Assembly (NCBI GenBank): GCA_947456805.1
Contig: CANGTN010000003.1
Coordinates: 1-64,000, forward strand
Reading direction: 5' to 3'
DNA length: 64,000 nt
Origin: Chitinophagaceae bacterium
GTDB lineage: Bacteria; Bacteroidota; Bacteroidia; Chitinophagales; Chitinophagaceae
Shown: positions 1 to 26,570 of the stretch, one piece after another
How the letters are laid out: every line of letters starts with the position of its first letter
How positions within the stretch are numbered: the stretch's first letter is position 1
Notes under the pieces: model-generated
What the model saw: the letters and a program-made list of their open reading frames with translations, nothing else
Database searches by the model: none
What the model was told of the DNA's origin: nothing
Program-made: the position numbers and the translations under genes

Positions 1-5
1 ATTTG

Positions 6-1370: not shown

Positions 1371-1387
1371 TAATTAATTATCGACGC

Positions 1388-2914: not shown

Positions 2915-2961
2915 GAAAAAAATTTGAAAATGTAAAGAAAATATTTGTAGAAATAATGCAA

Positions 2962-3417
2962 CTAACTGCAGGCAATTTTATTTACCCTTAACGCATGCCT
3001 GCCTCCTTCAAAAGGAGTGGTAATAAAATTTTGAATCATTTCCAAAGCCAATGGCAATGCAACAAACCGAGCCGGAATACAAATTATATTGGCATCATTG
3101 TGTTTGCGAATTAATTTGGCAACATCATTTTCCCAACTTAATCCGGCACGAACATGTTGGTGTTTGTTTGCTGTAATTGCAACACCATTGGCACTTCCAC
3201 AAAACAATATTCCAAATGCACAAGCTTCGCTTTCAACATCTTTTGCAACTGTATGCGCAAAGTCGGGATAATCAACAGAGTCCAAAGAAAAAGTGCCCGC
3301 ATCTTTCACCTGATAACCATTGTCCTGTAACCATTTTTTCGTAGCTTCTTTGTACTCAAATCCTGCATGGTCACAACCAATTGAAATTGGTTTTTGTAAA
3401 TCAAATGTTGAACTCAT
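2962..3417 (-). CDS. rpiB: ribose-5-phosphate isomerase B
   Basis: 151-aa RpiB/LacAB-family sugar-phosphate isomerase interconverting ribose 5-phosphate and ribulose 5-phosphate in the pentose phosphate pathway. Visible motifs are GCDHAGF (residues 14-20) and the active-site cysteine C73 in CGSANG, followed by the phosphate-binding HQHVR segment (86-90). Length is typical. It lies 31 bp downstream of the CNNM-type membrane gene on the same strand and may be co-transcribed with it. A transketolase subunit gene at 5.5 kb belongs to the same pathway. Confidence 0.95.
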   Translation of the reverse strand: MSSTFDLQKPISIGCDHAGFEYKEATKKWLQDNGYQVKDAGTFSLDSVDYPDFAHTVAKDVESEACAFGILFCGSANGVAITANKHQHVRAGLSWENDVAKLIRKHNDANIICIPARFVALPLALEMIQNFITTPFEGGRHALRVNKIACS

Positions 3418-3448
3418 AAAATATTTTAAAGTAGAAATTGAAAATTAA

Positions 3449-4705: not shown

Positions 4706-4813
4706 ACACCGAAAATATAAAAAAATAATTATACCGCACACTCTAAATTTTGAATACTTTTTAAAGGAAAATAAATGTCGGACTCTTTCTTTTTCAGCAA
4801 CCAAATAACCTTG

Positions 4814-4846
4814 TTGTTCATTTGCAATTGGCTTCGAGTACCTTTG
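4814..4846 (+). promoter_or_regulatory. Bacteroidota-type promoter for pdxH
   Basis: A -33 TTG (4814-4816) and a perfect -7 box TACCTTTG (4839-4846) are separated by 22 nt. The pdxH ATG lies 13 nt past the -7 box, implying a very short leader. This matches the TTG-N(17-23)-TAnnTTTG pattern known for Bacteroidota sigma factors. Confidence 0.6.
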
Positions 4847-4859
4847 TGCAAAAACCAAT

Positions 4860-5504
4860 ATGCATCAATCTTCAATAGCTGATATTCGGAGAGATTATAA
4901 ACTGCAGTCTTTTTTAGAAACAGATGCTGCTGCAAATCCGATAGAACAGTTTACAAAGTGGTGGCAAGAAGCCATTAATAGCAATATTGATGAAGTAAAT
5001 GCTATGACACTTGCTACTTGTACCACGGACGGTAAACCCAGCGCAAGAACTGTATTGCTGAAAGATTATAATGAGGATGGATTTGTTTTTTTTACAAATT
5101 ACAATAGCCATAAGGGCAAAGAAATTAATGATAATCCGCATGCAGCTTTAGTTTTTTTCTGGAAAGAATTAGAAAGACAAATACGGATTGAAGGAACAGT
5201 TCAAAAAATTGATGATACAAAAAGTGATGCTTATTTTTTAAGTCGTCCAAGGGGTAGTAAAATTGGCGCTTGGTCTAGTCCCCAAAGTGAAGTAATTGCC
5301 AATCGTGGAATTTTAGAAGCACATGAAGAAAGATTTAAAAAAGAATTTGGCGAAAACATACCAAGGCCTTTGCATTGGGGTGGCTACAATGTACAACCCA
5401 CAAAAATTGAATTTTGGCAAGGAAGAAGCAGCAGGCTACACGACCGTTTACAATATCGCTTGGATGCAAACAAAAATTGGATTATAGAAAGATTAGCACC
5501 TTAA
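4860..5504 (+). CDS. pdxH: pyridoxamine 5'-phosphate oxidase
   Basis: 214-aa FMN-dependent oxidase that makes pyridoxal 5'-phosphate from PNP or PMP, the last step of vitamin B6 synthesis and salvage. Diagnostic segments are RTVLLKDY with FFTNYNSHKG (FMN and phosphate contacts, about residues 61-88), and a C-terminal WQGRSSRLHDR motif that binds the PLP product. Length is standard. It is monocistronic and divergent from the CNNM-type gene, with its own promoter. Nearly certain. Confidence 0.97.
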   Translation: MHQSSIADIRRDYKLQSFLETDAAANPIEQFTKWWQEAINSNIDEVNAMTLATCTTDGKPSARTVLLKDYNEDGFVFFTNYNSHKGKEINDNPHAALVFFWKELERQIRIEGTVQKIDDTKSDAYFLSRPRGSKIGAWSSPQSEVIANRGILEAHEERFKKEFGENIPRPLHWGGYNVQPTKIEFWQGRSSRLHDRLQYRLDANKNWIIERLAP

Positions 5505-5518
5505 AAATTTCTTCAAAA

Positions 5519-6490
5519 TTATTTTCTGCTGATTACTTTTTCTGCAGCTGCCACAATAAAAGGAGTGTCTAAGCCATATTTTATCAATAATTCAAGCGGT
5601 TTTCCGCTTTCACCAAAAGAATCATTTACACCAATATATTCAATTGGGATAGGGCAATGTTTGGCCGCAACTTGTGCAATACTATCTCCCAAACCACCAA
5701 TTACATTGTGTTCTTCAACGGTTACGGCACATTTTGTTTTTTGAATACTTTTCAAAATAGCCTCCGTATCTAGAGGTTTAATTGTATGGATATTGATTAC
5801 TTCAACACTAATTCCTTTTGCTTCTAACATTTTTCCGGCTTCAATTGCTTTCCAAACCATATGTCCACAAGCAAAAATAGAAACATCGGTTCCTTCACTC
5901 AATTGTTGCGCTTTGCCAATTACAAAATCGCTTCCATCTTCTTTGGTAAAATTTGCCCATTTCGGACGGCCGAAGCGCAAGTAAACCGGACCTTCGTGAG
6001 CTGCTATCGCCTTGGTTGCAGCTTTTGTTTGATTAAAATCACAAGGCACAATTACCGTCATGCCTGGTAACATTTTCATCAATCCAATATCTTCTAAAAT
6101 TTGATGTGTTGCACCATCTTCTCCTAAAGTTAGTCCAGCATGTGAAGCACATATTTTTACATTCTTTTCGCTGTAAGCAACGCTTTGTCTGATTTGATCA
6201 TACACACGACCTGTACTAAAATTTGCAAATGTAGTTGTGTAAGGTATTTTTCCTCCGATTGTCATCCCTGCTGCAATGCCTATCATGTTTGCTTCTGCAA
6301 TACCTACTTGTATAAAACGATTGGGAAATGCTTTGATAAATGGCCCAAGTTTTAAGCTACCCGCAAGGTCGGCAGTAAGTACAACAACCTGTTCATTTTC
6401 TTGACCAATTTCATAAATTCCTTCACCAAAACCGCCACGAGTTTCTTTCTCGTTCAAAAGTGCAATATCTGAACATTTCATACGATTCAT
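5519..6490 (-). CDS. transketolase C-terminal subunit
   Basis: 323 aa covering only the pyrimidine-binding and C-terminal domains of transketolase. Motifs include GIAEANMIGIAAG (cofactor-contact Glu), FATFANF-like TTTFANFSTGRVYDQ, and VEEHNVIGGLG in the C-terminal domain. The thiamine-diphosphate-binding N-terminal half is not encoded on either side. The function must depend on an N-terminal subunit encoded elsewhere, as in organisms with split transketolases. The start could be the first Met (6490) or Met4. A TTACTTTG -7-like element lies just upstream. Confidence 0.9.
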   Translation of the reverse strand: MNRMKCSDIALLNEKETRGGFGEGIYEIGQENEQVVVLTADLAGSLKLGPFIKAFPNRFIQVGIAEANMIGIAAGMTIGGKIPYTTTFANFSTGRVYDQIRQSVAYSEKNVKICASHAGLTLGEDGATHQILEDIGLMKMLPGMTVIVPCDFNQTKAATKAIAAHEGPVYLRFGRPKWANFTKEDGSDFVIGKAQQLSEGTDVSIFACGHMVWKAIEAGKMLEAKGISVEVINIHTIKPLDTEAILKSIQKTKCAVTVEEHNVIGGLGDSIAQVAAKHCPIPIEYIGVNDSFGESGKPLELLIKYGLDTPFIVAAAEKVISRK

Positions 6491-6529
6491 TTTATTGACG
6501 CAAAGTAAAGGAATTAGATTGACGCAAAT

Positions 6530-6553
6530 AAAAAAAGCTACCGATTTGGTAGC
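6530..6553 (-). terminator. terminator after the desaturase gene
   Basis: On the minus strand GCTACC-AAATC-GGTAGC is followed by seven T residues, placed between the desaturase stop and the transketolase start. It has the same CTACC/GGTAG core as two other terminators in this window. Confidence 0.8.
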
Positions 6554-6584
6554 ATTTAAAATAGTATTGTTTTAGTTTACTATT

Positions 6585-7337
6585 TTAATTATTTGAATTG
6601 GCCGGAATCCTATTTAATTGAATAATGCCAATAAAGTTTAAGCCACGCATTACCTGATAGGTTAAATCAAATTCAAACCATTTCTTGGCAAAATTTGCAT
6701 CATTTTTATCGTGGTGATGATTATTTTGAAACAACTCACCCAATAAAAATATACCCCATGGACCAGTATTTTTACTTTGATCAACGCTGTCAAAATTTCT
6801 GTAACCATATTTGTGACCACACCAGTTTACAATAGCTCCTTGAATTGGACCCATCAAAAAGTGTATTGGCAATAATAAATACCACCAGGCGCTTGGTGCA
6901 AACACCACATAAATTGCGATATAAGAAATGATAAAAAACAATCTTGTAAGACCATGATGACCAAACTTGTCTAGTTTTTCCCAAACAGGCAAATAGTCTT
7001 TTGTAAACTCATCACTTGGCATTGCTTTTTTGGTTAAGAATGATCTATAAATAAGAATAGTACTTTTCATCATCTGGTACACATCTTTAAAAAAGTGTGG
7101 TGAATGTGGATCTTCTTCCGTATCACTGTAAGCATGATGCATTCTGTGCATTACGCCATAAGCTCTTGGTACTAAGTACGATGATCCCTGAATAAACCAA
7201 GTACTTAGATAAAATATTCGTTCCCAGTTTTTACTGGTAGTATACATTTTGTGAGATGCAAATCGATGCAAGAAAAACGTATGAAAAAATAGGGATAAAA
7301 ACCAATGCAACAAAAAAAACGAAATGATTACTACCAT
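6585..7337 (-). CDS. membrane fatty-acid desaturase (acyl-CoA desaturase type)
   Basis: 250-aa integral-membrane di-iron desaturase. Three histidine boxes are visible: HRFASH (residues 24-29), HRMHH (64-68) and NNHHHDKN near residue 215. They are separated by hydrophobic segments that should form four membrane spans. This architecture fits stearoyl-CoA-desaturase-like enzymes introducing a cis double bond, usually delta-9, into saturated acyl chains. It is slightly shorter than most relatives. The 400-bp upstream region carries a perfect 16-bp palindrome that could be a regulatory site. Position of the double bond cannot be read from sequence. Confidence 0.9.
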   Translation of the reverse strand: MVVIISFFLLHWFLSLFFHTFFLHRFASHKMYTTSKNWERIFYLSTWFIQGSSYLVPRAYGVMHRMHHAYSDTEEDPHSPHFFKDVYQMMKSTILIYRSFLTKKAMPSDEFTKDYLPVWEKLDKFGHHGLTRLFFIISYIAIYVVFAPSAWWYLLLPIHFLMGPIQGAIVNWCGHKYGYRNFDSVDQSKNTGPWGIFLLGELFQNNHHHDKNDANFAKKWFEFDLTYQVMRGLNFIGIIQLNRIPANSNN

Positions 7338-7739
7338 TTTAGTAGGGGGTTTTGATTAGAAAATGTAATGTACAGTATAAATTCTACATAGCACATTTGT
7401 ATTGATATTTTTTCGGTTACGGGTTTGTTTTATTAAACAAAAACCAAAAAAACAACGGATTATTAATAGAAAAAATCATACCAATATCAATTGATATTAT
7501 AATCTTTAACACACACAATCAGCCAAATAAAAAATGAGTATGTACCAATAAACTGCAACCTTACTCTATACTTTATTTGAAAGTAAGGTAAAACAAAAAT
7601 CATTATACCATTTGGGGGATGTATTATTGCAAAGAATAACCATTGAGAAGATAGGATTGTAATTATTGCTCAATTAAACACATTAAATTTCCCATTAAAA
7701 CAAATGTTCAGTTACTTTGTTTCTTTATTATAAGTCCAA
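7338..7739. other. 402-bp divergent intergenic region with two inverted repeats
   Basis: No gene was recognised here. It holds a perfect palindrome AATATCAATTGATATT at 7483-7498 and an inverted repeat ACCTTACT (7558-7565) / AGTAAGGT (7582-7589) with a 16-nt loop. A TTACTTTG -7-like element lies about 20 bp before the ABC transporter start. It separates the divergent desaturase and ABC exporter genes, so it probably carries promoters for both. Confidence 0.5.
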
Positions 7740-9566
7740 ATGAAACGTTTCTTTAAAATCTTTAGTTACATTAAAGAGTATAAGCTTAATATGGGTTTAT
7801 ATTTTCTTTTTGTTATATTATCAATTGCATTTAGTTTATTCTCTCTTAGTTTATTATCCCCTTTTATGGATTTAATTTTTGGAGATAAAAATTTAACTCA
7901 GCCAATTGCATCAATTCCTCAGGGAGCCAATATTACAAACAATTTAAAAGATACTTTATATGCTTACTTAAATTCCCTTGTTAACAATCATGGGAAAGAG
8001 TATACACTAGGAATTATTTGTATTTTTATTATACTAATGATTTTTTTTAAAAATATATTTCTTTATTTTTCATACTTTTTTTTAGCACCTGTTCGTTACT
8101 CCATCTCAAAAAAATACAATATTGCTTTGTATGACAAGATTATACAATTGCCTATTAGCTTCTTTACCGAACAAAAAAAGGGGGATATTTTAAGTAGGGC
8201 AGGCAGTGATGTTGTGGAACTTGAAAACTCTGTAACTGCGGCTATGGAAAGTATTATTAAAGACCCTTTGAATATTATCGGAATTCTTATTTTCCTGTTT
8301 TTTGCAAGTTTTAAATTAACATTGTTTATATTAATTTTCTTTCCTATTTCCGGTTTTGTTGTTGGTAGAATAGGCAAATCTCTGAAAAAGCAAACCAATA
8401 AAGCACAAATAAAATGGGGTGAAATAATAAGTAATCTAGAGGAAACACTAACCGGATTAAGAATTATCAAAGCTTTTAATGCTGAGGCTAAAATGAAGAA
8501 TAACTCGGACAGGCTGACGAATGATATGTTCGAGATTAAAACAAAAATGCAATACAGACGTGATATTGCTTCTCCATTATCAGAATTCTTGGGAATTTGT
8601 ATTGTATGTGGAGTTCTTTACTTTGGTGGCAGATTGGTATTAACAGGTCAAATAATGTCGCCCGGAGCATTCATAACTTATGTAGCTATTTTTTCTCAAA
8701 TAATAAACCCTGCAAAAGCTTTGTCAAGTGCTTATTATCATGTACAAAAGGGGGCTGCAACGTTAGACAGATTAAATGAAATTTTAAATGCCCCTGTAAT
8801 AGTTGCAGATAATGCAAATGGAAAACAGCTTGAGTCTTTTCAAAATGCAATTGAATTCAGAAATGTTTCTTTTTCGTACAACGAACATGTAATTTTAAAA
8901 AACATCAATTTAGTTGTGCCCAAAGGAAAAACAATTGCATTGGTTGGCAGCAGTGGTGCAGGCAAAAGTACTTTGGCTGATTTGGTTCCAAGATTTCATG
9001 ATGTTACATCCGGTGAATTATTGATTGATGGAATTAACATCAAAGATTATAGTGTAAAAAGTATTCGGGAAAAAATTAGTATCGTAACACAAGAACCAAT
9101 TTTATTTAATGATACGATTGCCAACAATATTGCATTGGGCAAACAAGATGCATCGCTGCAACAAATTGAGGACGCTGCAAAAATTGCAAATGCATACAAT
9201 TTCATTTCAAAAAAAGAAGAAGGTTTTAATAACAACATCGGTGATAGGGGAAGTAAATTAAGTGGAGGCGAAAGACAGCGACTTACAATTGCAAGAGCTG
9301 TTTTAAAAAATCCACCAATATTGATTTTAGATGAAGCCACTTCATCTTTAGACACAGAAAGTGAGCGTTTGGTTCAGGATGCGATTAATAACATGATGCA
9401 AAACAGAACCAGCATTGTTATAGCGCACCGACTAAGCACTATTAAAAATGCAGATGAAATTATTGTTTTACAAAACGGTTCCATAGTAGAACGAGGAACA
9501 CATGACAGCCTGATTGCAAAAGACGGATTTTACAATAAATTGGTGCAAATGCAAGAGGTGAAATAA
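7740..9566 (+). CDS. ABC exporter, MsbA-like (fused membrane and ATPase domains)
   Basis: 608-aa half-transporter. A six-helix type-I exporter membrane domain covers roughly residues 15-340, followed by a nucleotide-binding domain. The Walker A GSSGAGKS begins near residue 403, the signature LSGGERQR is near 506, and Walker B ILILDEAT is near 526, with a switch histidine in IAHRLST. It should act as a homodimer in the inner membrane. Its position at the edge of a polysaccharide cluster suggests flipping of a lipid A or lipid-linked glycan substrate, but substrate cannot be read from sequence. Confidence 0.92.
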   Translation: MKRFFKIFSYIKEYKLNMGLYFLFVILSIAFSLFSLSLLSPFMDLIFGDKNLTQPIASIPQGANITNNLKDTLYAYLNSLVNNHGKEYTLGIICIFIILMIFFKNIFLYFSYFFLAPVRYSISKKYNIALYDKIIQLPISFFTEQKKGDILSRAGSDVVELENSVTAAMESIIKDPLNIIGILIFLFFASFKLTLFILIFFPISGFVVGRIGKSLKKQTNKAQIKWGEIISNLEETLTGLRIIKAFNAEAKMKNNSDRLTNDMFEIKTKMQYRRDIASPLSEFLGICIVCGVLYFGGRLVLTGQIMSPGAFITYVAIFSQIINPAKALSSAYYHVQKGAATLDRLNEILNAPVIVADNANGKQLESFQNAIEFRNVSFSYNEHVILKNINLVVPKGKTIALVGSSGAGKSTLADLVPRFHDVTSGELLIDGINIKDYSVKSIREKISIVTQEPILFNDTIANNIALGKQDASLQQIEDAAKIANAYNFISKKEEGFNNNIGDRGSKLSGGERQRLTIARAVLKNPPILILDEATSSLDTESERLVQDAINNMMQNRTSIVIAHRLSTIKNADEIIVLQNGSIVERGTHDSLIAKDGFYNKLVQMQEVK

Positions 9567-9720
9567 TTAGTTTTTATTTCTTACTATAAAAGAAAGATCG
9601 CTTCTAGTTAAAAACTATTATAAACTTTTGAGAAAACGGATTGTTTTATGCTATAGCTGAGATAATCAAGTTCTTCTTAAAAAAGCTGAACGCTTAATTA
9701 TGAAACTTCTGTTGAATCAT

Positions 9721-9947
9721 TTAAATCAAGGTTTTCATTAAATTGGTAATAACATAAGCAGCATCAATAAAATTCTGATCATATTTTGGTCTGGGAGATT
9801 GATATATTAAACTACAATTGTTGCATTGTACCTATTGATATTGCAACTCTGAGCCGAATTTTTCTAACAACTTTGATTTTCACTAAAACAAAAAGGACAA
9901 GGAACTGTTTCCCACAACCTTGGATTGTATTTCCTTGCTTCACTCAT
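9721..9947 (-). pseudogene. broken N-terminus of a zinc-ribbon SAM methyltransferase gene
   Basis: The minus strand from the ATG at 9947 encodes MSEARKYNPRLWETVPCPFC, then hits a stop. Shifting frame near 9868 continues as KLLEKFGSELQYQ, an in-frame TAG (9832-9834), then VQCNNCSLIYQSPRPKYDQ and NFIDAAY. The two CxxC pairs (CPFC, CNNC) and the SPRP segment are the zinc-ribbon start of class I methyltransferases common in glycan clusters. The SAM-binding domain is gone. One frameshift plus one nonsense codon make it non-functional. Identified from pattern, not by search. Confidence 0.7.
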
Positions 9948-9980
9948 AATGTTATAATTGGCGCAGTTAATCAATCGAAT

Positions 9981-10964
9981 TTAATCCACCATTTCTAAAT
10001 ACTTTGGGGATGCTTCAATTAATTGTGGGGCTTTAGAATTGAGTTGCTCTCCATTTAAAACCTTCTCGTACATACCAATGTATTTTTCGGTCATCGCTTT
10101 TGCAGAAAAATATTCAACAACATAATCATGGCAATGCTTTGCATTGAACTGCCCGATGTTTTTTAATGCATTGGCTAACTCAGAATAGCTGTTTGATAAA
10201 AAGCCAACTTCTTTATTTACCAACTCAGGCAAACTGCCATATGGCGTGCCCAAAACGGGGCAGCCATAATACATACTTTCAATAATAGCAATGCCAAATG
10301 GCTCATGCCAAAGCACAGGAAAAATAAGGGCTTTAGAGCCATTGAGTAACTGCATTTTTTCATGTCCTCCAACGTTGCCATAAAATTGTACATGCGTATC
10401 TAATGTAATTCTGATACCCATATTAAAGTTAAAGCGAACACCACCCAATACAGCTAATTTCTCGTGAGCCTTTTTAGCAATTTTGATTGCCCCTTTAACA
10501 TTTTTTACTTTCCATGAGGCATCTGCAAGAAAGTGTGCATAGGACCTTTTTTTATTAAAATCCGGATTTTCGTAATCATCAAAATCTAACCCATTGTATA
10601 CAAATGTAGTTGACCCAAAACGATGTGCATGATTTTGAGAAACAAATACGGAGTTGGGATGAAACTTTACAGAAGTATCATTCATATTGCCATGCTCAGT
10701 AACTATAAAAGGTTTTTTAATATCACCGTCCGCATATCCATTATAATGAACAACATCTATACCTGCCGGTATTTGTTGCTGGAAAGGAATATCTTTCCTT
10801 AACTCATACAGCTTAGCAAAGGGACACGAAGAGCCCTTTCTTACAATGTAACTTACAATGTGACCTCTTTGTGTCAAGTTTTTTCCTAGCCACCATATCA
10901 TTCTTTCAATTCCACCATACTTTATAACAGGGATAACACAATCAGCCACTATTAGAATATGCAT
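9981..10964 (-). CDS. GT4-family glycosyltransferase
   Basis: 327-aa retaining GT-B glycosyltransferase. The N-terminal donor-free domain carries the GGIERMIWWLG segment (about 18-28) typical of GT4. The C-terminal domain has the E-x7-E region in HEPFGIAIIESMYYGCPVLG, which binds the nucleotide-sugar. It should add a sugar to a lipid-linked or LPS-type acceptor in the cytoplasm. It lies at the left end of the surface-glycan cluster, downstream of the broken methyltransferase and divergent from two GT2 genes. Donor and acceptor unknown. Confidence 0.88.
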   Translation of the reverse strand: MHILIVADCVIPVIKYGGIERMIWWLGKNLTQRGHIVSYIVRKGSSCPFAKLYELRKDIPFQQQIPAGIDVVHYNGYADGDIKKPFIVTEHGNMNDTSVKFHPNSVFVSQNHAHRFGSTTFVYNGLDFDDYENPDFNKKRSYAHFLADASWKVKNVKGAIKIAKKAHEKLAVLGGVRFNFNMGIRITLDTHVQFYGNVGGHEKMQLLNGSKALIFPVLWHEPFGIAIIESMYYGCPVLGTPYGSLPELVNKEVGFLSNSYSELANALKNIGQFNAKHCHDYVVEYFSAKAMTEKYIGMYEKVLNGEQLNSKAPQLIEASPKYLEMVD

Positions 10965-11075
10965 CTGCTTATCTTTTTCGAGATATAAAAATAGTATTCA
11001 TTCTATATCGGCACATTTATATTTTAAATCGCCAAACATTAATACCAAATATTAACTTTGCTAGTTTAATAATAT

Positions 11076-11990
11076 ATGCAAAAAAACAATTCTCTTGTTT
11101 CTGTAGCTATGGCTACTTATAACGGGGCTAAATATATTGAGGAACAATTGCGATCTATTATTCATCAGACTTACAATAACATTGAAATTGTTATCGTAGA
11201 TGACTGTTCTAAAGATGATACAGTTAAAATTATTCAACAATATCAACTGAAATATCCTTTTATAAATTTGTTTGTTAATGAGCATAATAGTGGTGTAACC
11301 AAAACTTTTGAAAAAGCTATTAAAGCAAGTAAAGGATTGTTTATTGCAATTTCTGATCAAGACGACATATGGGAACTGAATAAAATTGAAATACTGGTGG
11401 GTGAAATAGGAGAACATGATGCAATTTATTCTAATTCATTATTGGTTGACGCAAACGGAATTTCTCTCAACAAGTCATTTACCTCTATCATGAATATGAA
11501 AACGTATTACAGTGGGGCTCCATTTTTATTGTCTAATTCAGTTCCTGGACATACCATATTAATGACAAAAGAATTTGTAAAAAAAATACTACCATTTCCT
11601 GAGAATATGTTGTTTGATTTATGGATTGGCTTTTGTGCAGCTGCAAACAATGGTATTAAACATGTAGATAAAACTTTGGTCAAATACAGGCAACATGATA
11701 CCAATACAATTGGAACTAGAGACTCTAAAAACATCAAACAAAAAGACCCGGTAAAGCTTCAGTTTCAATTTAAATTAAATGAACTTAAAACTTTAGCAAC
11801 TGCACCTATCCGTGACGAAAAAACAAAGTTGATTCTTGCTAAAATGATACATCATTTCCACAGAAAATGGAGTTTCAAGAGAAGTCTTTTTTTCTTTAAA
11901 TATTACAATGATATACTTATTAGCAAAAAGAAACCTGTTTACAGAAAAAAACTTTTTTGTATAAAAATGTTTTTTAAGCCAAACTTTTAA
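11076..11990 (+). CDS. GT2-family glycosyltransferase (first of a tandem pair)
   Basis: 304-aa inverting GT-A enzyme. The N-terminal Rossmann-like motif VSVAMATYNGAKYIEEQL, the VDDCSKDDT nucleotide-binding Asp, and the SDQDDIW metal-binding DxD-type motif are clear. The C-terminal third is basic and hydrophobic, possibly membrane-associating. A TAACTTTG -7-like box at 11053-11060 precedes it. It is a close paralogue of the next gene, 12 bp downstream, and the two are probably co-transcribed. Likely adds a rhamnose-type or other sugar in O-antigen or capsule assembly; the exact sugar is not predictable. Confidence 0.9.
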   Translation: MQKNNSLVSVAMATYNGAKYIEEQLRSIIHQTYNNIEIVIVDDCSKDDTVKIIQQYQLKYPFINLFVNEHNSGVTKTFEKAIKASKGLFIAISDQDDIWELNKIEILVGEIGEHDAIYSNSLLVDANGISLNKSFTSIMNMKTYYSGAPFLLSNSVPGHTILMTKEFVKKILPFPENMLFDLWIGFCAAANNGIKHVDKTLVKYRQHDTNTIGTRDSKNIKQKDPVKLQFQFKLNELKTLATAPIRDEKTKLILAKMIHHFHRKWSFKRSLFFFKYYNDILISKKKPVYRKKLFCIKMFFKPNF

Positions 11991-12002
11991 AAAAACATTT
12001 CT

Positions 12003-12923
12003 ATGAGTACTGCCTTTGTTTCAATTGTTTTATGTACGTATAACGGAGAAAAATATTTAGACGAGCAATTGAATTCAATTTTAAATCAATCTTATGTAAA
12101 TTTTGAAATCATTATCTCTGATGATGCCTCAACAGATAATACACTAATGGTGTTAGAAAAATATAAAAGTGATACTAGAATAAAAATTTTTCAAAATACA
12201 GTTAACCTTGGCTATATCAAAAACTTTGAAATTGCTTTGAGGCATATAACAGGTGATTTTATTGCATTTAGTGATCAAGATGATATTTGGCTACCAAATA
12301 AACTTGAATGCTTGGTAAATAATATTGGCGATAAATTATTGGTGTATAGCAATAGTGAATACATTGATGAAGGTGGTAAATTATTGAATAAAAAATTAAG
12401 CGATATCAGCTTAATGTATTCCGGAACAAATTCAAGAGGTTTTATTTTATGGAATGTAGTTTGGGGCCATGCTATGCTCATAAAAAAAGAATTATTATCA
12501 GTAATTTTACCTATTCCAACCAATGCTCCACACGACATATGGATGGCTTTTAAAGCAACTAATTGTGGCGGAATACAATACATAAACAAAGTATTAACGC
12601 ATTACCGTCAGCATACCAATACAGTAACCCATCAAACTTTTAACTCTGCACCAAATAAACAAAGTAGATCTTTGAAAAAAAGATATGAGGAGTACTTAAA
12701 AAATATAGAGTGGTATACTATATTACAAAAAAATGCACAACCAAAGGAGCAACCATTTTACAATGTTTTTATACAATTATATAAACAAAAAGAACAAGGA
12801 TTTGCCTGGCAACTTTTCTTTTTTATGATAAAACACAGGAAAGACTTTTTTTTATTTAGGAATAAAAAAATGCTAAGTCAGGTTGTAGAAATAAGAAAAT
12901 TATGTCGATATGAAAAAAAATAA
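12003..12923 (+). CDS. GT2-family glycosyltransferase (second of a tandem pair)
   Basis: 306-aa GT-A glycosyltransferase resembling its upstream neighbour throughout: VSIVLCTYNGEKYLDEQL, SDDASTDNT, SDQDDIW, and a shared HYRQH segment near residue 201. The C-terminal tail is again lysine-rich and hydrophobic. The spacing of 12 bp from the previous stop indicates one transcript. It converges on the methyltransferase gene with only 4 bp between stops. The pair looks like a tandem duplication with divergence of acceptor or donor specificity. Confidence 0.9.
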   Translation: MSTAFVSIVLCTYNGEKYLDEQLNSILNQSYVNFEIIISDDASTDNTLMVLEKYKSDTRIKIFQNTVNLGYIKNFEIALRHITGDFIAFSDQDDIWLPNKLECLVNNIGDKLLVYSNSEYIDEGGKLLNKKLSDISLMYSGTNSRGFILWNVVWGHAMLIKKELLSVILPIPTNAPHDIWMAFKATNCGGIQYINKVLTHYRQHTNTVTHQTFNSAPNKQSRSLKKRYEEYLKNIEWYTILQKNAQPKEQPFYNVFIQLYKQKEQGFAWQLFFFMIKHRKDFFLFRNKKMLSQVVEIRKLCRYEKK

Positions 12924-12927
12924 ATTA

Positions 12928-13689
12928 TTACATTTTTTTTCTTGCCATCGCAATTAAGTGAAACGGTTCCGTGAAATCTTGATATAAAAATTCAGTATCA
13001 AAATATGAAAAGATTTCTTTCAACAATGCTCCATCAAAAACATGATGATGCAAGCACCTGTTTTCAAAATTCTTCAAAGAACGTTCGTAAAAAAAAGTGC
13101 TGTCTTTAATCTCTGGAGTTTGGGCATAATCATGCAATTGCAAAATTTCTTCTAAATGAGTTAAATCGTGCTCGGTAGTATTATTATCATAATCAGCTTC
13201 TAAATGCTCAAATTTTGTGATGGGTCTGTTACAATCAAAAGTGTATCTTTTGTCTGGTAATACTAAAACCAAAATGCCCCCCTTTTTTAATATTCTAAGC
13301 CATTCTTCAATAGCTTTTAACGGGTTTGCAAAATGTTCTAAACTATGACTGGATAGAAGAAAATCATAAGATTCATTTTGGATTGCCTTTAAATTATTGC
13401 CCTCTGCAATAAATTGAAAACCTGGTAGTTGATTATCGTCATAAATATAATTATTGCCTTCTTCTAAAACACCCTCCCAAACTGTTTTGGTTGAAAAGTT
13501 ACACCCGTCAACTTTTTTTGCAAGTCCGTATATTGGCAATGCATTATTTGCTTTGAATATTTTGCTGGGTCCACCAATTTCTAAGCCTGTTTTATTTTCA
13601 AACAAAGTGTGAAATTGCCTAAATTTTTTAAGCTCTTGACCATAAATAAGTTTATTAATCTTTCTTATTATTTTATCTGTATTGAACAT
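12928..13689 (-). CDS. class I SAM-dependent methyltransferase
   Basis: 253 aa with a Methyltransf_11-type core. TGLEIGGPS (about 34-42) is the SAM-binding glycine motif, SSHSLEHFANPLKAIEEWLR is motif IV/V, and LKKGGILVLVLPDKRYTFD follows. The unusual GGPS variant and the later FYERSLKNFENRCLHHHVFD region recur in methyltransferases of sugar or polysaccharide clusters. It is last in a three-gene minus-strand run with the FkbM methyltransferase (4-bp gap) and a GT2. Probably methylates a glycan or glycan precursor. Confidence 0.85.
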   Translation of the reverse strand: MFNTDKIIRKINKLIYGQELKKFRQFHTLFENKTGLEIGGPSKIFKANNALPIYGLAKKVDGCNFSTKTVWEGVLEEGNNYIYDDNQLPGFQFIAEGNNLKAIQNESYDFLLSSHSLEHFANPLKAIEEWLRILKKGGILVLVLPDKRYTFDCNRPITKFEHLEADYDNNTTEHDLTHLEEILQLHDYAQTPEIKDSTFFYERSLKNFENRCLHHHVFDGALLKEIFSYFDTEFLYQDFTEPFHLIAMARKKM

Positions 13690-13693
13690 GCAA

Positions 13694-14440
13694 TTACTGG
13701 TAGTTATTTACTAAATTATTATTGATTAAAATTAAGTTCTCGCCACTCAGGTGTAAAGAAAAATCATATTTCCTAATGGTATTAAAAATAGCTTTACTTG
13801 TTCCTTTCCTGTATCTGTCATGTGTTTCTACAATAATTATTTTAGTATTAGGAATCCAATTTTCATAATTGCTTTCAAAAATTTCTTTTTCAGCACCTTC
13901 AATATCAATTTTCAAAATATCAATTAATGTAGTATTCATAAGCTGCATAATTTCATCAACGGTATAGCCACGTATTATGTTATCACCACTTCCTTTTTCA
14001 ACCATATAGCCAGCTTCACCTAAGCCGTTATCTACTAAATTTATAACTTCAGACTTATCCCAAATGGCACCATGAATTAACGTAATGTTTGCATAATTTT
14101 TAGTGTTAGTTGCAGCGGTTGCATGATTGTTTTTTTCGGGCTCTAATGAAATTATTTTAGCGTTTGGAAATTTGTTTGCAAAGTACACGCTGGCATATCC
14201 AACATTAGCTCCTAAGTCTATAATACTTTGTGCATTTATAGTAATCGGTAGTTGATATTGCTTTTCAATAAAAATTTGCTCAAACATTGCATAGTCTGAG
14301 TAAATTCCTCTAAAAAAAACAGGTTGGTTTAAAAATGAAAATTGAATACTGTTTGCTGTTTGTTTCTTTACAGCTGTATAAAATTTTAAACCATCTTTTA
14401 AACCTAATTTGTCAATATATTTTGATAGTCTGCTTGCCAT
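13694..14440 (-). CDS. FkbM-family methyltransferase
   Basis: 248-aa SAM-dependent O-methyltransferase of the FkbM family. Motif I IIDLGANVGYASVYFA lies near residues 73-88, the acidic IISLEPEKNN next, and the family-specific DILKIDIEGAEKEIF near 174-188. FkbM-type enzymes methylate hydroxyls of polyketides and sugars. Within this cluster a sugar O-methylation of the surface glycan is the simplest reading. It sits between a GT2 gene (33 bp upstream) and the second methyltransferase (4 bp downstream), so the three are likely one operon. Confidence 0.9.
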   Translation of the reverse strand: MASRLSKYIDKLGLKDGLKFYTAVKKQTANSIQFSFLNQPVFFRGIYSDYAMFEQIFIEKQYQLPITINAQSIIDLGANVGYASVYFANKFPNAKIISLEPEKNNHATAATNTKNYANITLIHGAIWDKSEVINLVDNGLGEAGYMVEKGSGDNIIRGYTVDEIMQLMNTTLIDILKIDIEGAEKEIFESNYENWIPNTKIIIVETHDRYRKGTSKAIFNTIRKYDFSLHLSGENLILINNNLVNNYQ

Positions 14441-21302: not shown

Positions 21303-21458
21303 ATGAAACAAACATTCCAACCACATACACGTCGTAGAAAATCTGTACATGGTTTCCGCAAGCGCATGCAATCAGCTAATGGTCGAAAAGTATTGGCTAG
21401 TCGTCGTGCAAAGGGTCGTAAAAAACTAACCGTTTCTGACGAACGTGGGTTAAAATAA
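21303..21458 (+). CDS. rpmH: 50S ribosomal protein L34
   Basis: 51-aa, highly basic protein: N-terminus [20 protein letters not shown], then [20 protein letters not shown], which is the universal L34 pattern, with a short Bacteroidota-type C-terminal extension (about seven residues). It has its own strong promoter and is followed by a terminator. The usual rnpA and yidC neighbours are absent, so in this genome L34 stands alone. Confidence 0.97.
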
Positions 21459-21486: not shown

Positions 21487-21516
21487 AAAAGTTCTACCAA
21501 TTGGTAGAACTTTTTT
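21487..21516. terminator. bidirectional terminator shared by rpmH and the ABC membrane gene
   Basis: Perfect palindrome AAAAGTTCTACC-AATT-GGTAGAACTTTT (21487-21514) flanked by A-run and T-run. It ends the rpmH transcript, and its left and central part is also the last codons and stop of the convergent ABC membrane gene (SSTNW-stop). Confidence 0.85.
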
Positions 21517-22360
21517 CGATTTCTATCCTTTGTGCAATATCATTTAATGATGCATATTTATCTACTGCATAAGGAATAGTGTCAAGTCCAGTTACAAAAC
21601 TTTTCACATAACTATACATCGCCACCAAACTGCCGGCATTTAACAACATTACTCCTTTGTGTGTGGTAATAAGAGAAAGGGTTATAACAATGATAGATAG
21701 CATTTCCATGATTCCAAAATTGATAGCTTGCTTATCAGAAATTTTGATCTGCCAATTTCTTAGTTTATCATAATGCTTATGAATAGCTAAAATATTTCCT
21801 GACTCAATTACATCAATTTGATTTTCCAGTTCGTCATTTTTTGTTTTGTTCAGCTGCTTCATCTTTTTTCCATAAAAATAACTGATGATCATTACGGGAA
21901 TTAATATGCTGAAACAAATAGCCACAACACGAATATCATAAAAGAACAATAATATTAGTGATCCGAAAATATTGTAAACAGCTTCTAAAACATACACCAA
22001 GTCATGCTCCAAAAAATCTACAAACTCTCTTGCCAAAGTGCTATGCGCAGAGAGTTTTGAAACATCTTTGTGATTGATTTGACGACTTAAAAAGTTGGTA
22101 ACTATTGTATTGTAAATGGAGGAATACGTTCTTGTATCATATCGTTGTCTGATAACGCCAACAATCATCCATAAAAACCGAACAACACATAAATAAATTA
22201 AACCGTTGTAGCTTTTATTAATCAGTCCGTTTACAGCTTCCCCCAAAAAATAAGGGGTTAACAAAGCGCCAAGCATTTCAAGAGAAAACAATATATATGT
22301 AATGAGCAATTGTAGCTTATGTTTTAGAAATATTTTTTTTAAAATTATCAGTTGAACCAT
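21494..22360 (-). CDS. ABC exporter membrane domain without ATPase domain
   Basis: 288 aa, covering only a six-helix type-I ABC exporter fold: helices around 16-37, 50-66, 128-142, 144-164, and 222-250, with the long cytoplasmic coupling regions between. No Walker A, signature or Walker B sequence follows; the frame ends inside the shared terminator palindrome. It is the last gene of the SET/ATP-grasp run, 163 bp downstream of the fusion gene. It could pair with an ATPase encoded elsewhere, act as a non-ATP-driven membrane sensor, or be a decayed exporter. The open frame of 288 codons argues for selection. Confidence 0.75.
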   Translation of the reverse strand: MVQLIILKKIFLKHKLQLLITYILFSLEMLGALLTPYFLGEAVNGLINKSYNGLIYLCVVRFLWMIVGVIRQRYDTRTYSSIYNTIVTNFLSRQINHKDVSKLSAHSTLAREFVDFLEHDLVYVLEAVYNIFGSLILLFFYDIRVVAICFSILIPVMIISYFYGKKMKQLNKTKNDELENQIDVIESGNILAIHKHYDKLRNWQIKISDKQAINFGIMEMLSIIVITLSLITTHKGVMLLNAGSLVAMYSYVKSFVTGLDTIPYAVDKYASLNDIAQRIEIEKSSTNW

Positions 22361-22523
22361 TTCTTAAAGTCTTTAAATAATTGCCTAATTGGTTTTATAA
22401 ATTCTATGCTTGTTCTAATTACTAGCTATTGATGCACTAGTTTGAGACTAATCCCTGAACTGATAGTTTAAAATAAAAAGTACTGAACAAAATTAAGAAA
22501 ATTGGAGAGGGTCATTTTTTAAA

Positions 22524-23927
22524 TTAGGTAATTGTTGTGTTTTTAACCCCTGAAATTTTACCTCTGCATTGAGCACTACCACACTGGCAGTCAAACGGTT
22601 GTGCAGTTTCATCTAAAAAGTTACTGTAATCTAAGGTCAACTCTTCATTATTGTTAATGTTTTGTAAAGCAACAACATTGAGTCCCAGATAAGTGGTGTT
22701 TGCGCTACAACTGTGGTTTTGTGGCGCCCAATCTACTGGGTTTTCGCTCCATAAAATATATACATCTTTGCTTATTGGGTATGCGTAGCGGGCAAAGTCT
22801 AATTGTTCCCTTTCATTCCAGTTTGCCGCTACATATTTTTTAGTCACAATTCTTTGTGCTTTTTCTTCTCCTTTAAAAATAACTTCTCCTTTATGTATTG
22901 GTTGGGTTGCGTAAATTCCATACCCTTCAATTGCATTTCCTTTGATACTATATTTTTTTTGTTTTCTATAGTGCCTTGCTATTCCTTCTGAAATGATATG
23001 TTGTAAAAATCCTGCTTGTCCAATGCCATCGTTGTATAAAATATAATCCGCGCTTCCTTCAAAACCATTGGTATAAAAAACGGAACATGTAAAATTAATC
23101 TCCAGAAAAAAAAGTTTGCCTTCATCATTCATTCTAAAGTCTAATCTTGCATAACCTTCACCATTGAATGCGGTGAAAATGCTTGCTGCAGCGGTTCTTA
23201 AAGCAATATCTAGTTCAACATCATTCACAGGAACATTTGCATCGGTATGTAAATCGGATGTTTTAAGGCTGTATGTTTTGAAGGAATTTGACTCAGGAAA
23301 AATAAATTCTACCGGTTTAAATGTGGTGCAAGTTTTACCATCAACATTTGCCGCAACTAAAACAGTAAACTCTCTTCCGGCTATATATTCTTCAACTAAA
23401 ATTTCATTGTATTCATCAATAATAGCTCCTACTTTTTTTTGCAGTTGCATTTCATTTTGAACCAATGAAAACTCATCAATACCCAAGCTATCACCGGCTT
23501 TTGCGGGTTTTACAAATAATGGAAACTGCAATGATTTAATTGTACTTTTTGATTCATCGGAAGATTGTAATAAACAAAATTTTGGGGTTGCTACGCCAGC
23601 ACAATAAGACACATACTTCATTAATGTTTTTGTTGGATCGTACAATAAAGTAGTAGGTCCTGTAAAAGGTAGTTGCAATAATTCTAAATAATAAATAACC
23701 TCTATGCTCGGCACATCCCATTCTAAATAACCTTCACAGAGGTTTACAAAAACACTAAACCCCTCTTTACTTAGTTTTTTTAATTGTTTGTAAACGGTGA
23801 GTTTGTGTAAAAAAATAGTAACTACTTCATCATCCGGGAGCAGGTGATTTAAAATTCTTGGAGGATCATAATGCCGATAATCAACAGTAGAATTTGAATA
23901 ATCGGGAAGTAGTACACAAATTTTCAT
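22524..23927 (-). CDS. ATP-grasp ligase fused to a C-terminal SET domain
   Basis: 467 aa with two domains. Residues about 1-320 are a D-Ala-D-Ala-ligase-like ATP-grasp: NLCEG near 62, FTGPTTLLY near 88, LFVKPAKAGDSLGI (ATP-binding Lys and glycine loop) near 138-151, and the metal ligands in ARLDFRMNDEGKLFFLEIN. Residues about 325-467 are a SET domain: EGYGIYA (SAM-binding GxG), NHSCSANT, EELTLDYSNF, and a post-SET CQCGSAQC zinc motif. The SET half should methylate a lysine-type amine; the ligase half should form an amide bond using ATP. I know no characterised protein with this architecture. Confidence 0.88.
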   Translation of the reverse strand: MKICVLLPDYSNSTVDYRHYDPPRILNHLLPDDEVVTIFLHKLTVYKQLKKLSKEGFSVFVNLCEGYLEWDVPSIEVIYYLELLQLPFTGPTTLLYDPTKTLMKYVSYCAGVATPKFCLLQSSDESKSTIKSLQFPLFVKPAKAGDSLGIDEFSLVQNEMQLQKKVGAIIDEYNEILVEEYIAGREFTVLVAANVDGKTCTTFKPVEFIFPESNSFKTYSLKTSDLHTDANVPVNDVELDIALRTAAASIFTAFNGEGYARLDFRMNDEGKLFFLEINFTCSVFYTNGFEGSADYILYNDGIGQAGFLQHIISEGIARHYRKQKKYSIKGNAIEGYGIYATQPIHKGEVIFKGEEKAQRIVTKKYVAANWNEREQLDFARYAYPISKDVYILWSENPVDWAPQNHSCSANTTYLGLNVVALQNINNNEELTLDYSNFLDETAQPFDCQCGSAQCRGKISGVKNTTIT

Positions 23928-23987
23928 ATTCTTTGCAGCTTAACAATGGTAATGCTTTACATCAAAATATTGTATGGAATAAAGCTA

Positions 23988-25076
23988 TTAATTTTTTGTA
24001 ATTGCATTGTATAAAATTTCACTTACCAAAGAGGTAAACGACTTTTCACTCACTTTCAAAATTGCACCAATGCTAGTATAATCTTCATCTTCACTTAGCC
24101 CACATTGGGCGTTCACTTCAAGTACGTACATTTTTTTGGTGGCATTATCCATTCTGATATCTGCTCTTGTATATCCCGTTCCTTTGCAGGCTACATAAGC
24201 CCTCCAGGCCAATCCTTTTATTGCTTCCTGAAGCTCTGAAGGTGCCGGTTGATACTCATAAAAATTTTCATCATTAGGCATGGGAGTTTCATCTTCATAA
24301 ATTTCCCACAATCTGTCGAACGATAAAAACTTTTCTACTGCCGGTAATGATGCGTGAAATACTCTTTCAACAGGTGTATAAATGATTGCACTTTCCGGTT
24401 GAAGATAATTACCTACAATCAATACCGTATATTCCGGTCCGTCAATAAAAGCTTCTGCAATAATACCATCGGTTGCTAATTGCCAGCCTCTGTAACCAGC
24501 AAACATTTTTTTTATTTGTGTAGTTAACTCGTGTTGATTATTCACAACATTTTTTACACTAACACCCATGCTGCCACCACTTACTGCCGGTTTTACAATG
24601 ATAGGGCTGCCAAGGGTTGTAAAAATATTTTCTATGTTTTCTTCAGCGTTTGTAATCGCTTGCCATTTTGCAGTTGCTACTTCGTGTTGATCAAATGCAT
24701 GTTTCATGGGTACTTTAGAAGTAGTGATGTGGTAAAAAAAGGCATCTGCTCCGGTGTAAATCAATTTTTTTTCTTCTAAATAATGAATCACAGAAATACC
24801 GGGGGTTCCATTCATTTCATCACCATCGCATAAATTAAAAATTATAGGTTGCAATGGTGGTGATGTGTGAATGATTGTATCAATGATTTCCTGATAATTA
24901 TTCATTGTTACAGGTTGCCATTGCCACTCAATATTTAATTTGGCAAAGGTTTTGGTATATTCTTCAATACTTTGCGTAAAATCATAGTAGTAGTCAATAT
25001 TTGCATCGGTAGTTTCTAAATGCGGAGCTAGTACCCAAACTTTTATTTGATGGAATATGGTCTCTAATTTGTTCAA
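23988..25076 (-). CDS. D-Ala-D-Ala-ligase-like ATP-grasp enzyme
   Basis: 362 aa. The start is TTG at 25076; upstream in-frame codons reach a stop after three, and the TTG overlaps the SET gene stop as TTGA, so translational coupling is likely. Features: NLCDGDEMNGTPG near 79-91, IIVKPAVSGGSMGVS (ATP-binding Lys and loop) near 160, and TRADIRMDNATKKMYVLEVN with the metal-binding Asp/Glu/Asn set. After EVN the substrate loop reads AQCGLSED, not the TxPGFT of true Ddl, so the substrate is unlikely to be D-Ala-D-Ala. It resembles the ligase half of the next gene. Confidence 0.88.
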   Translation of the reverse strand: MNKLETIFHQIKVWVLAPHLETTDANIDYYYDFTQSIEEYTKTFAKLNIEWQWQPVTMNNYQEIIDTIIHTSPPLQPIIFNLCDGDEMNGTPGISVIHYLEEKKLIYTGADAFFYHITTSKVPMKHAFDQHEVATAKWQAITNAEENIENIFTTLGSPIIVKPAVSGGSMGVSVKNVVNNQHELTTQIKKMFAGYRGWQLATDGIIAEAFIDGPEYTVLIVGNYLQPESAIIYTPVERVFHASLPAVEKFLSFDRLWEIYEDETPMPNDENFYEYQPAPSELQEAIKGLAWRAYVACKGTGYTRADIRMDNATKKMYVLEVNAQCGLSEDEDYTSIGAILKVSEKSFTSLVSEILYNAITKN

Positions 25077-25564
25077 ACATTTATTTTAGATTGAATAAAA
25101 GAAGTCAGTTGATATTTTGATAAAATATTTCGGTCAATGTATTTAGCGCCTTTGATAATTTTCAGGCATTCGAATAAGCCGCAGTTGCATTCAAAGGCCT
25201 GTGCCATATCCCATTCAGATGACGGATAAAAAAAACAAAGTTCATCACCGGCTGTAATGTCTTTTACACAAATTAATTGCATAGAATCGGTATCAAAAAA
25301 AGCATTGGGATTACAGCTATGGTTAATGTATTGTAAAAACTCAGGGCTGATATGAAAATGTTTATTATCTGCAAGTTGAATTGTTAAATAGTTTGGTGTT
25401 GCTGAAATTGCAAAAGCATCAATTGTGGTAATAGAATTACCGGCGGTATAATTTTTTTTCGAAAAAAATGCTTTAGCACCGGTTAATACTTCTTGCCTTA
25501 CCTCACCAAATTCATGTGTACTAATGATTGTATAATGGTTCGTTGGTTGTTGCTCATTTATCAT
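25073..25564 (-). CDS. stand-alone SET-domain methyltransferase with post-SET motif
   Basis: 163 aa. A SET fold is indicated by YINHSCNPNAFF (about 90-101), the GDELCFFYPS strand near 115-124, and a post-SET CNCGLFEC zinc motif near 134-141 that supplies the aromatic-lysine channel. SET enzymes transfer methyl from SAM to lysine side-chain amines. The family is mostly eukaryotic; bacterial members exist, mainly of unknown substrate. It is the first enzyme of the operon, 52 bp after the outer-membrane-type gene and overlapping the ATP-grasp by 4 nt. Confidence 0.85.
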   Translation of the reverse strand: MINEQQPTNHYTIISTHEFGEVRQEVLTGAKAFFSKKNYTAGNSITTIDAFAISATPNYLTIQLADNKHFHISPEFLQYINHSCNPNAFFDTDSMQLICVKDITAGDELCFFYPSSEWDMAQAFECNCGLFECLKIIKGAKYIDRNILSKYQLTSFIQSKINV

Positions 25565-25616
25565 ATAATAACATAGACTCTAAAATAATTCAAAGTTTAA
25601 GATGCAATCAACTTTT

Positions 25617-26570
25617 TTAAAATTTAAAATATACTCCTGCTTCTACAAAAAATCTGGATGATAAATTTTTCTCAGATTCAGGTGTACTGTCTTCTGTTTT
25701 TATAATGGTATTTCCCGTTCTTGGTTTAATAGTTGATGTGGTAGTGGTATATATTGGATTTTGCGGGAATGCTAGCGTCGGTGTGCAATAAACCCCCCAT
25801 TTTTTTTCATCGTAGCTAATTGGCACAAACAATTCTATGTCCATCAGCGTAAGTTTATTTTGGGCAACTTTTGTTACCGATGTAACACTGATTATATTTG
25901 GAATTGTATTAAGTTTTTTAATTGAAAAACTTCTACTCGTATAGCCTTCGTAAAAATAAAGCGTACTTAAATTAACCATTGCTTTTGGAGTAATAGTCCA
26001 AAGTTTATCATCAGTGCCAAAGTAAAAAGAACGACTGATCGTAGCATCAATACCAATATCTGTTTTGTTTGCAAAAGAGGCACTTAAACCTGTATTTAAT
26101 TCAAAATAATTAAAGTCATACGTAAGGCTTGCGCTTAAACTGCCCCTTACATCGCTACTTACAATTTTACTGCCTTCTTGATAAATACATTTATTAGCAG
26201 TTACACTACCCGACATTTTTTTGGTAACATCAAATTCATAACCGGCATCAAAAGAATAATAATCTATTTTTTTTGATGTAGATGAAGTCAGATAACCTAC
26301 AGAAGCTGAAATATAAAATCCACTTTTATCAAAGTACCCAATTGTTGGAGTGATGTAGGGTAAAGTAAGTGAGTCGGCTCTTCCTAAATAAATAGAGTTG
26401 TTTACATAATTAATGTCAAATTTGAAATGTGATTTTTCTGATATAGTAGAATTTGATTTTATGGGTGTAGTATCTGTTATGCCATTTCTTGTTGATTGTG
26501 CAATTATCAAATTACTATATCCAAATATTATGATAAATAAAAATGTGATTAGGGTAAATCTGTTACTCAT
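25617..26570 (-). CDS. predicted outer-membrane beta-barrel protein
   Basis: 317 aa with a signal peptide (about 1-24, ending IIAQ). The mature part is rich in alternating hydrophobic/polar stretches with aromatic belts (FDINYVN, YISASVGYL, ASLTYDFNYFELNTGL, FFVEAGVYFKF) and ends in Phe, as expected for an outer-membrane beta-barrel. I do not recognise the family. It precedes the SET/ATP-grasp genes on the same strand with a 52-bp gap, so it may be part of that transcript and handle its product, or be an unrelated neighbour. Confidence 0.7.
   Translation of the reverse strand: MSNRFTLITFLFIIIFGYSNLIIAQSTRNGITDTTPIKSNSTISEKSHFKFDINYVNNSIYLGRADSLTLPYITPTIGYFDKSGFYISASVGYLTSSTSKKIDYYSFDAGYEFDVTKKMSGSVTANKCIYQEGSKIVSSDVRGSLSASLTYDFNYFELNTGLSASFANKTDIGIDATISRSFYFGTDDKLWTITPKAMVNLSTLYFYEGYTSRSFSIKKLNTIPNIISVTSVTKVAQNKLTLMDIELFVPISYDEKKWGVYCTPTLAFPQNPIYTTTTSTIKPRTGNTIIKTEDSTPESEKNLSSRFFVEAGVYFKF

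Follow-up and report, generated by a model that had tools for sequence, protein, structure and literature searches.

SET-domain enzymes have been described chiefly as methyltransferases of protein lysines, and this is also how bacterial copies are commonly annotated. In a Chitinophagaceae bacterium (contig CANGTN010000003.1; the analyzed stretch of 64,000 nucleotides is referred to as the window), two SET domains are encoded next to two ATP-grasp ligases, one SET domain being fused to a ligase. This raises the question whether the genes of this locus form one functional system and, if so, which type of compound it produces. The original prediction was a system of five genes, including an outer-membrane barrel protein and an ABC membrane protein, for amino-acid ligation coupled to methylation and export.

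Organization of the Locus

The order and spacing claimed for the five minus-strand genes were confirmed by the ORF coordinates, and four of the five gene products have a Pfam match (Table 1). Following the order barrel-like gene, SET, AG, FUS and ABCm, the intergenic distances calculated from the ORF coordinates are 52, −4, 60 and 163 nt, where the negative value reflects a 4 nt overlap of the AG start with the SET stop codon.

Table 1. Genes of the analyzed locus with their positions in the window.
Gene product	Position	Strand	Pfam match and remarks
Putative barrel-like protein	25617-26570	-	no Pfam match at E 0.1; judged outside the module
Stand-alone SET methyltransferase (SET), BurB-like, 163 aa	25073-25564	-	PF00856, E 5.8e-9
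Ddl-like ATP-grasp amide ligase (AG), 362 aa, TTG start	23988-25076	-	PF07478 (Dala_Dala_lig_C), 6.9e-17
ATP-grasp-SET fusion (FUS), 467 aa; ligase ~1-320, SET ~325-465	22524-23927	-	PF07478, 9.9e-25; PF00856, 1.1e-9
ABC-transporter membrane domain (ABCm), without ATPase domain, 288 aa; optional partner	21494-22360	-	PF13748 (ABC_membrane_3), 2e-41

The six flanking genes of the window checked with Pfam encode a FAD/NAD oxidoreductase, an SDR, an EPSP synthase-like protein, MeaB, GT87 and EamA. A role in anti-phage defence was considered and rejected, since the PADLOC models gave 0 matches for the five proteins at E 0.001.

Conservation of Gene Order

For the comparison of gene order, the best 80 of 555 matched places were analyzed, which are the nearest relatives of the locus and not a fair sample. 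They include loci from Sediminibacterium, Terrimonas, Ferruginibacter and Hydrotalea; cultured species with FUS are Sediminibacterium soli and Terrimonas pollutisoli. FUS was present in all 80 of these loci, AG in 78, SET in 63, ABCm in 43 and the barrel gene in 3. The gene order was found to be kept: SET and AG share a strand in 63 of 63 loci with a gap below 30 nt in 59, AG and FUS in 78 of 78 with a gap below 70 nt in 70, and FUS and ABCm in all 43 loci having both. This arrangement exceeds chance. The SET gene was not found in 17 of the 80 loci and AG in 2; in 6 of the 17 SET-less loci, the sequence ends no more than 50 nt from the ligase genes. The pairwise identities of the partner proteins correlate (r = 0.72–0.82).

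A recurrent block adjoins the core in many loci. It was checked in one of them (L086) and consists mostly of housekeeping genes (MnmG, YbeY, FeoA, SSB and a helicase). Apart from this block and the genes checked with Pfam, neighboring genes were judged from maps alone.

Co-inheritance Within the Chitinophagaceae

Each part of the locus was searched separately in 117 Chitinophagaceae genomes. FUS was identified in 35 genomes at E ≤ 6.6e-178, one of these copies being cut by a contig end, and the best matches in the other genomes had E-values of at least 1.1e-18. AG was found in 35 genomes at E ≤ 1e-40 and the SET of the cluster in 35 genomes at E ≤ 5.7e-60, with the next match at 6e-13. The three lists are identical and comprise the same 35 of 117 genomes. 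If the genomes were independent, chance would be negligible as an explanation; due to shared descent, such probabilities overstate the case. The better evidence comes from genomes in which the genes are split, because the 35 genomes are related to each other. In G021, G053 and G093 (3 of the 35), SET is located apart from AG-FUS and all three genes are kept. In G322, which belongs to another class, SET-AG and FUS lie on separate contigs, again with all three genes retained. SET, AG and FUS therefore form a conserved, co-inherited module, and the predicted co-occurrence of SET, ATP-grasp and fusion is well supported by the identical lists and by the retention of unlinked genes.

The two outer genes behave differently from this core. 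ABCm was detected in 15 of the 117 genomes, all of them within the 35 core carriers, and was not found in the remaining 20 carriers. The barrel family is present in 48 genomes, namely 20 of the 35 carriers and 28 of the 82 others. Of the two genes that had been proposed to travel with the core, ABCm does so in a subset of the carriers and the barrel gene does not. Given its occurrence in carriers and non-carriers and its presence near the core in so few of the best 80 of 555 loci, the outer-membrane protein was rejected as a part of the module, and the barrel gene is regarded as an accidental neighbor. What remains of the five-gene system is thus a three-gene core of SET, AG and FUS with an optional ABC gene. 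In the sister species G110, which has no core, no synteny was observed around the reductase gene, so that an insertion boundary cannot be drawn from this empty site.

The proposed export across the envelope was not supported in its general form. An ABC exporter is taken here to combine a membrane and an ATPase domain, and Pfam identified the membrane domain alone in ABCm, which is moreover missing from the finds in more than half of the carriers. Export of the product by an ABC-type protein may nevertheless take place in some lineages.

Distribution Outside the Family

Among 395 genomes of the phylum, FUS was found in 17, of which 5 belong to the family and 12 do not. Nine of these 12 genomes represent a single genus (f18/g148). 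In this genus the SET was found in 9 of 9 genomes (one partial), a small SET in 8 of 9 and AG in 0 of 9. The layout in the two loci examined is BurB-like SET, FUS, ABC exporter and small SET. Magnesium-chelatase genes follow in one of the two, in which respect the lineage resembles green sulfur bacteria and which suggests that it belongs to them. The ABC gene after FUS is present in both loci, and both membrane and ATPase domains were identified by Pfam in one. ABCm was considered as an ortholog of this full ABC gene and rejected, as BLASTP gave no convincing similarity.

In two further genomes, G321 and G446, FUS is present and neither SET nor AG was found. Within the order of G322, AG and FUS adjoin in G519, and FUS and ABCm in G580. 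No full-length fusion was found on plasmids, which made up the search beyond the phylum. The core is thus not universal, given the f18 genomes without AG and the two FUS carriers G321 and G446 that have neither of its partners. As a fixed unit it characterizes one family and its apparent transfers, and FUS is the element common to all.

The Stand-Alone SET Protein Is Related to BurB

The SET profile was compared to solved structures and matched BurB at 1e-19, while the next solved SET, which is the best histone enzyme, reached 2e-8. A search with the single window sequence gave the same order (2.7e-12 for BurB, 9.8e-6 for the next match). The predicted structure (pLDDT 93.3) was also placed closest to BurB by Foldseek (1.7e-9 vs. 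7.9e-7) and by VIA-align (Z 15.4 over 129 residues for BurB, Z 11.6 over 117 residues for ASH1L), although the rmsd of the superposition is larger for BurB (3.6 Å) than for ASH1L (2.3 Å). Among solved structures, BurB is hence closest to the stand-alone SET, ahead of histone enzymes. Three SET proteins from outside the cluster but from the same bacterial family were fetched as controls, of which two were tested (from the carrier G100 and the non-carrier G058). Both match MLL1 best (3e-19 and 5.9e-16), and BurB was absent among their listed matches (best 60 of 96 and best 60 of 82). The likeness to BurB is therefore not general to small bacterial SET proteins.

BurB of Burkholderia thailandensis and its relative MSMT of Streptomyces mobaraensis are SET-domain methionine S-methyltransferases of DMSP synthesis. 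BurB converts free methionine to S-methylmethionine (PMC12542666; PMC7496086) and holds methionine mainly via the main chain (PMC12542666).

Conserved residues were analyzed in a structure alignment (A4) of 49 rows, consisting of the window protein and 48 of 62 rows of suitable length from the named loci. The alignments A1, A2 and A3 comprised the window protein and 15 of 40, 15 of 35 and 16 of 34 matches, respectively. In A4, T61, Q63, H69, N81, H82, C84, Y113, C126, C128 and C133 are identical in all 49 rows. Thr73 and Gln75 of BurB align with Thr61 and Gln63 of SET, which are found in 49 of 49 rows of A4 and in 16 and 17 of the 17 rows of A3; Tyr124 of BurB aligns with Tyr113. Thr-x-Gln, the His of the NHSC motif, Tyr124, the post-SET cysteines and the following Gly-Ala are common to both proteins, which share approximately 26% identity. 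Of the contact residues of BurB, T73, H93 and Y124 are kept. The SAM-contacting side chains His72, Arg133 and His138 are changed, with mostly Leu at SET position 60, mostly Gln at position 122 and a variable residue at position 127.

Position 60 also bears on the proposal that methylation of lysine or a diamine is the default reaction. Lysine enzymes show a tyrosine aligned with this position, which holds the lysine amine. In the stand-alone SET it is Leu in 48 of 49 rows of A4 and 15 of 17 rows of A3, the remainder being Tyr (2 of 17 in A3). The second tyrosine position of lysine enzymes is Tyr in all stand-alone SET rows. For this protein, which is BurB-like and mostly has Leu in place of the first tyrosine, the proposed default was not supported. 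The sequence cannot prove the substrate, because the SAM contacts differ and BurB binds methionine mostly through the main chain. By analogy to BurB, methionine is a possible substrate, to be treated as tentative.

A search with the SET of an f18 genome gave 11 plasmid matches, of which 5 neighborhoods were viewed. On an Eleftheria plasmid, the SET gene lies in a bur-like polyketide cluster with an aminotransferase and a dehydrogenase adjoining. A second neighborhood contains a GHMP kinase, PLP enzymes, a transporter and an alanine racemase, a third an asparagine-synthase-related gene and a SAM decarboxylase. One of the remaining two has no clear function and the other is unannotated.

The Two Ligases and the SET Half of the Fusion

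Both ligases are of the Ddl type by sequence, and the fold was computed for FUS. Its predicted structure (pLDDT 84.7) aligns with the Ddl fold over residues 1-323 with a Z-score of 28.4 (293 residues, 2.7 Å). As described for both copies, the ATP- and metal-binding residues are retained: the checked catalytic residues are invariant in 16 of 16 rows of each ligase, and one Glu adjoining those of the FUS ligase is found in 15 of 16 rows. The loops described as non-Ddl were likewise found, with N-x-x-C following the metal-binding Asn in 16 of 16 rows each, unlike the aligned Ddl sequences. Among the best 25 of 47 matched NCBIfam families for each ligase, the Ddl cut-offs were clearly missed (FUS 93.6 bits vs. 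245.65, AG 88 vs. 243). The similarity of AG to the L-amino-acid/dipeptide ligases BacD (1.3e-5) and BL00235 (3.4e-5) is weak; by analogy, its chemistry is likely to be similar to theirs.

The structure alignment of FUS comprised 40 rows (the window protein and 39 of 80 rows of suitable length from the named loci). Its SET half was judged by sequence, because the ligase families fill the list of VIA-align matches for the FUS model. The claim that both SET domains keep the NHSC and post-SET Cys motifs proved correct, since neither Asn, His and Cys nor the post-SET cysteines vary in the checked rows of SET (49 of 49) and of the fusion (16 of 16). The SET half aligns with MLL1 over its full length and with BurB along the C-terminal half only. 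In addition, Y381 and Y434 are found in 16 of 16 rows at the positions where MLL1-type lysine enzymes have tyrosines. These tyrosines have roles in lysine methylation. Both tyrosines and the full-length MLL1 match indicate that the substrate of this domain may be an amine, so that it may catalyze an N-methylation.

Proposed Pathway and Alternative Explanations

The reading preferred here, with a probability of about 0.55, is that the operon produces a small, methylated, amide-linked amino-acid compound non-ribosomally. The stand-alone SET would methylate a free amino acid, most likely methionine, which would be S-methylated to S-methylmethionine as in BurB. AG and FUS would then use ATP to convert carboxylates to acyl phosphates, from which one or two amide bonds would be formed, and the SET domain of FUS would afterwards methylate the ligated product within the same polypeptide. 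The ABC-type membrane protein would export this compound in some lineages. The substrates, the order of steps and the export are inferred, and amide formation on a small molecule together with methylation is held slightly more firmly than the pathway with these steps. From the coupling of amide ligation, methylation and export that was originally proposed, a co-inherited system of Ddl-like ligases and SET enzymes thus stands, with an ABC-type protein in a subset of genomes; the lysine default, the barrel and export as a general feature do not.

Modification of a protein was considered as an alternative, in which the ligases tag a protein with an amino acid in the manner of tubulin ligases, or protein lysines are the methylation targets of the SET domains, in the histone style. 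Y381 and Y434 of the FUS SET half would fit this, as would the plasmid records, which label such SET proteins protein-lysine methyltransferases, and a eukaryotic protein, TTLL12, combines SET-like and ATP-grasp-like ligase domains (PMC3520985). TTLL12 itself is reported to be inactive in vitro (PMC3520985). The stand-alone SET is BurB-like, unlike the two SETs from outside the cluster, and both ligase parts are of the Ddl type. The substrates of Ddl-type ligases are free amino acids rather than proteins. Protein modification is hence considered unlikely. The same Ddl likeness, seen for FUS in sequence and fold and for AG in sequence, could instead indicate a cell-wall precursor, with a methylated dipeptide or depsipeptide replacing D-Ala-D-Ala in peptidoglycan. 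This is rather improbable, as another Ddl-like gene is located on contig C2 (L003) of the same genome, the module is patchy across the family, the N-x-x-C loop sets both ligases apart from the aligned Ddl sequences, and the NCBIfam cut-offs are far from reached among the best 25 of 47 families.

Graspetide clusters typically combine ATP-grasp enzymes and ABC exporters (PMC8939145), and the ligases might accordingly cyclise a ribosomal precursor peptide that is methylated by the SETs. However, in the best 80 of 555 loci, no family outside the core genes reaches more than 8 other loci among the 3012 ORFs of 18-100 aa located up to 1.5 kb away. The lack of a conserved small ORF beside the core argues against a ribosomal peptide, and the Ddl type of the ligases does so as well, which makes this pathway very unlikely. 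That the genes are neighbors by accident and have unrelated functions might be suggested by those FUS carriers outside the family that have no AG or SET. Against the identical lists of 35 genomes for the three genes and their retention when unlinked, this is hardly credible overall, and for SET, AG and FUS within the Chitinophagaceae it is not tenable. A methylated amino-acid amide, made non-ribosomally, thus remains the preferred reading of the product. The most far-reaching form of this reading, a new class of metabolites consisting of exported sulfonium or N-methyl amino-acid amides made by a bifunctional ligase-SET enzyme, is a tentative possibility.

Comparison With Known Systems

In the openly licensed literature, judged by titles and abstracts, no description of a bacterial SET/ATP-grasp fusion or operon was found, and the sole relevant case of an ATP-grasp with a SET domain was TTLL12. 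The module is real, co-inherited and apparently uncharacterized. BurB was called remarkable, since natural-product methyltransferases had previously come from other classes only (PMC7496086). If the reading is true, the module would be a second small-molecule pathway with SET enzymes, having two of them, one fused to a ligase, and many bacterial SET genes would have to be reread. The SET fold would then be one that bacteria use repeatedly for making small molecules, and not mainly a feature of chromatin. The module would also point to a new compound that occurs both in common environmental Bacteroidota and in a second lineage, which resembles green sulfur bacteria.

Compared to known systems, the module is an amino-acid ligase pathway with tailoring methyltransferases, in which the SET enzymes and the ligase-SET fusion are unusual. 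D-alanine--D-alanine ligases resemble it in the fold of FUS and the ATP- and metal-binding residues of both ligases; they differ in the loop after the metal-binding Asn, in the missed cut-offs (best 25 of 47 families) and in the SET domain fused to one copy. BacD and BL00235 are farther from AG than Ddl, and to our knowledge the operons of such ligases contain no SET enzyme. Iyer and co-workers reportedly predicted bacterial operons of ATP-grasp ligases and modifying enzymes in 2009. FUS in G321 resembles such peptide-ligase neighborhoods, being located beside an N-formylglutamate amidohydrolase, a MATCAP-family peptidase and a GSH-synthetase-like ligase. TTLL12 (PMC3520985) has the opposite domain order to FUS and a TTL-type ligase, whereas the catalytic residues of FUS are invariant. 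The genes next to BurB and MSMT encode a decarboxylase, an aminotransferase and a dehydrogenase. Such DMSP-pathway neighbors (decarboxylase, aminotransferase, aldehyde dehydrogenase) were not among the six flanking genes of the window checked with Pfam, and the neighbors of the stand-alone SET are amide ligases.

Gene neighbourhoods of the fusion, ATP-grasp and SET relatives

In the window, a gene for 50 residues runs convergently towards the point where the ABC membrane gene ends; its product, judged by eye from its translation, we take to resemble ribosomal protein L34.

Coordinates of the neighbourhoods and of the small gene
Locus	Source	Positions	Strand
Window	Chitinophagaceae bacterium	21303-21453	+
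L068	Genome G321	4544-8372	
L166	Thioflavicoccus mobilis plasmid	2485-7966	
L174	Eleftheria terrae plasmid	1-14237	
L175	Tabrizicola piscis plasmid	1124-6128	
L176	Rhizobium bangladeshense plasmid p7	5742-7654	

In G321, a carrier of the ATP-grasp-SET fusion outside the Chitinophagaceae, the fusion gene is adjoined by genes for an N-formylglutamate amidohydrolase, a MATCAP-family peptidase and a GSH-synthetase-like ATP-grasp protein, and this group is possibly another peptide-modifying set. The Ddl-like ATP-grasp gene of the T. mobilis plasmid is accompanied by SbnA, ornithine cyclodeaminase and diaminobutyrate transaminase genes and, on the opposite strand, by one for a radical SAM protein, KamA; these genes may encode a diaminopropionate peptide pathway.

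On the T. piscis plasmid the SET protein gene is grouped with those for a GHMP kinase, a PLP enzyme, a DMT transporter and an alanine racemase in one apparent operon. The SET-like hypothetical protein of R. bangladeshense is encoded between an asparagine-synthase-related protein and an S-adenosylmethionine decarboxylase. The E. terrae locus is a bur-like polyketide cluster, whose contents include a SET protein, a TauD dioxygenase, an aminotransferase and an aldehyde dehydrogenase.
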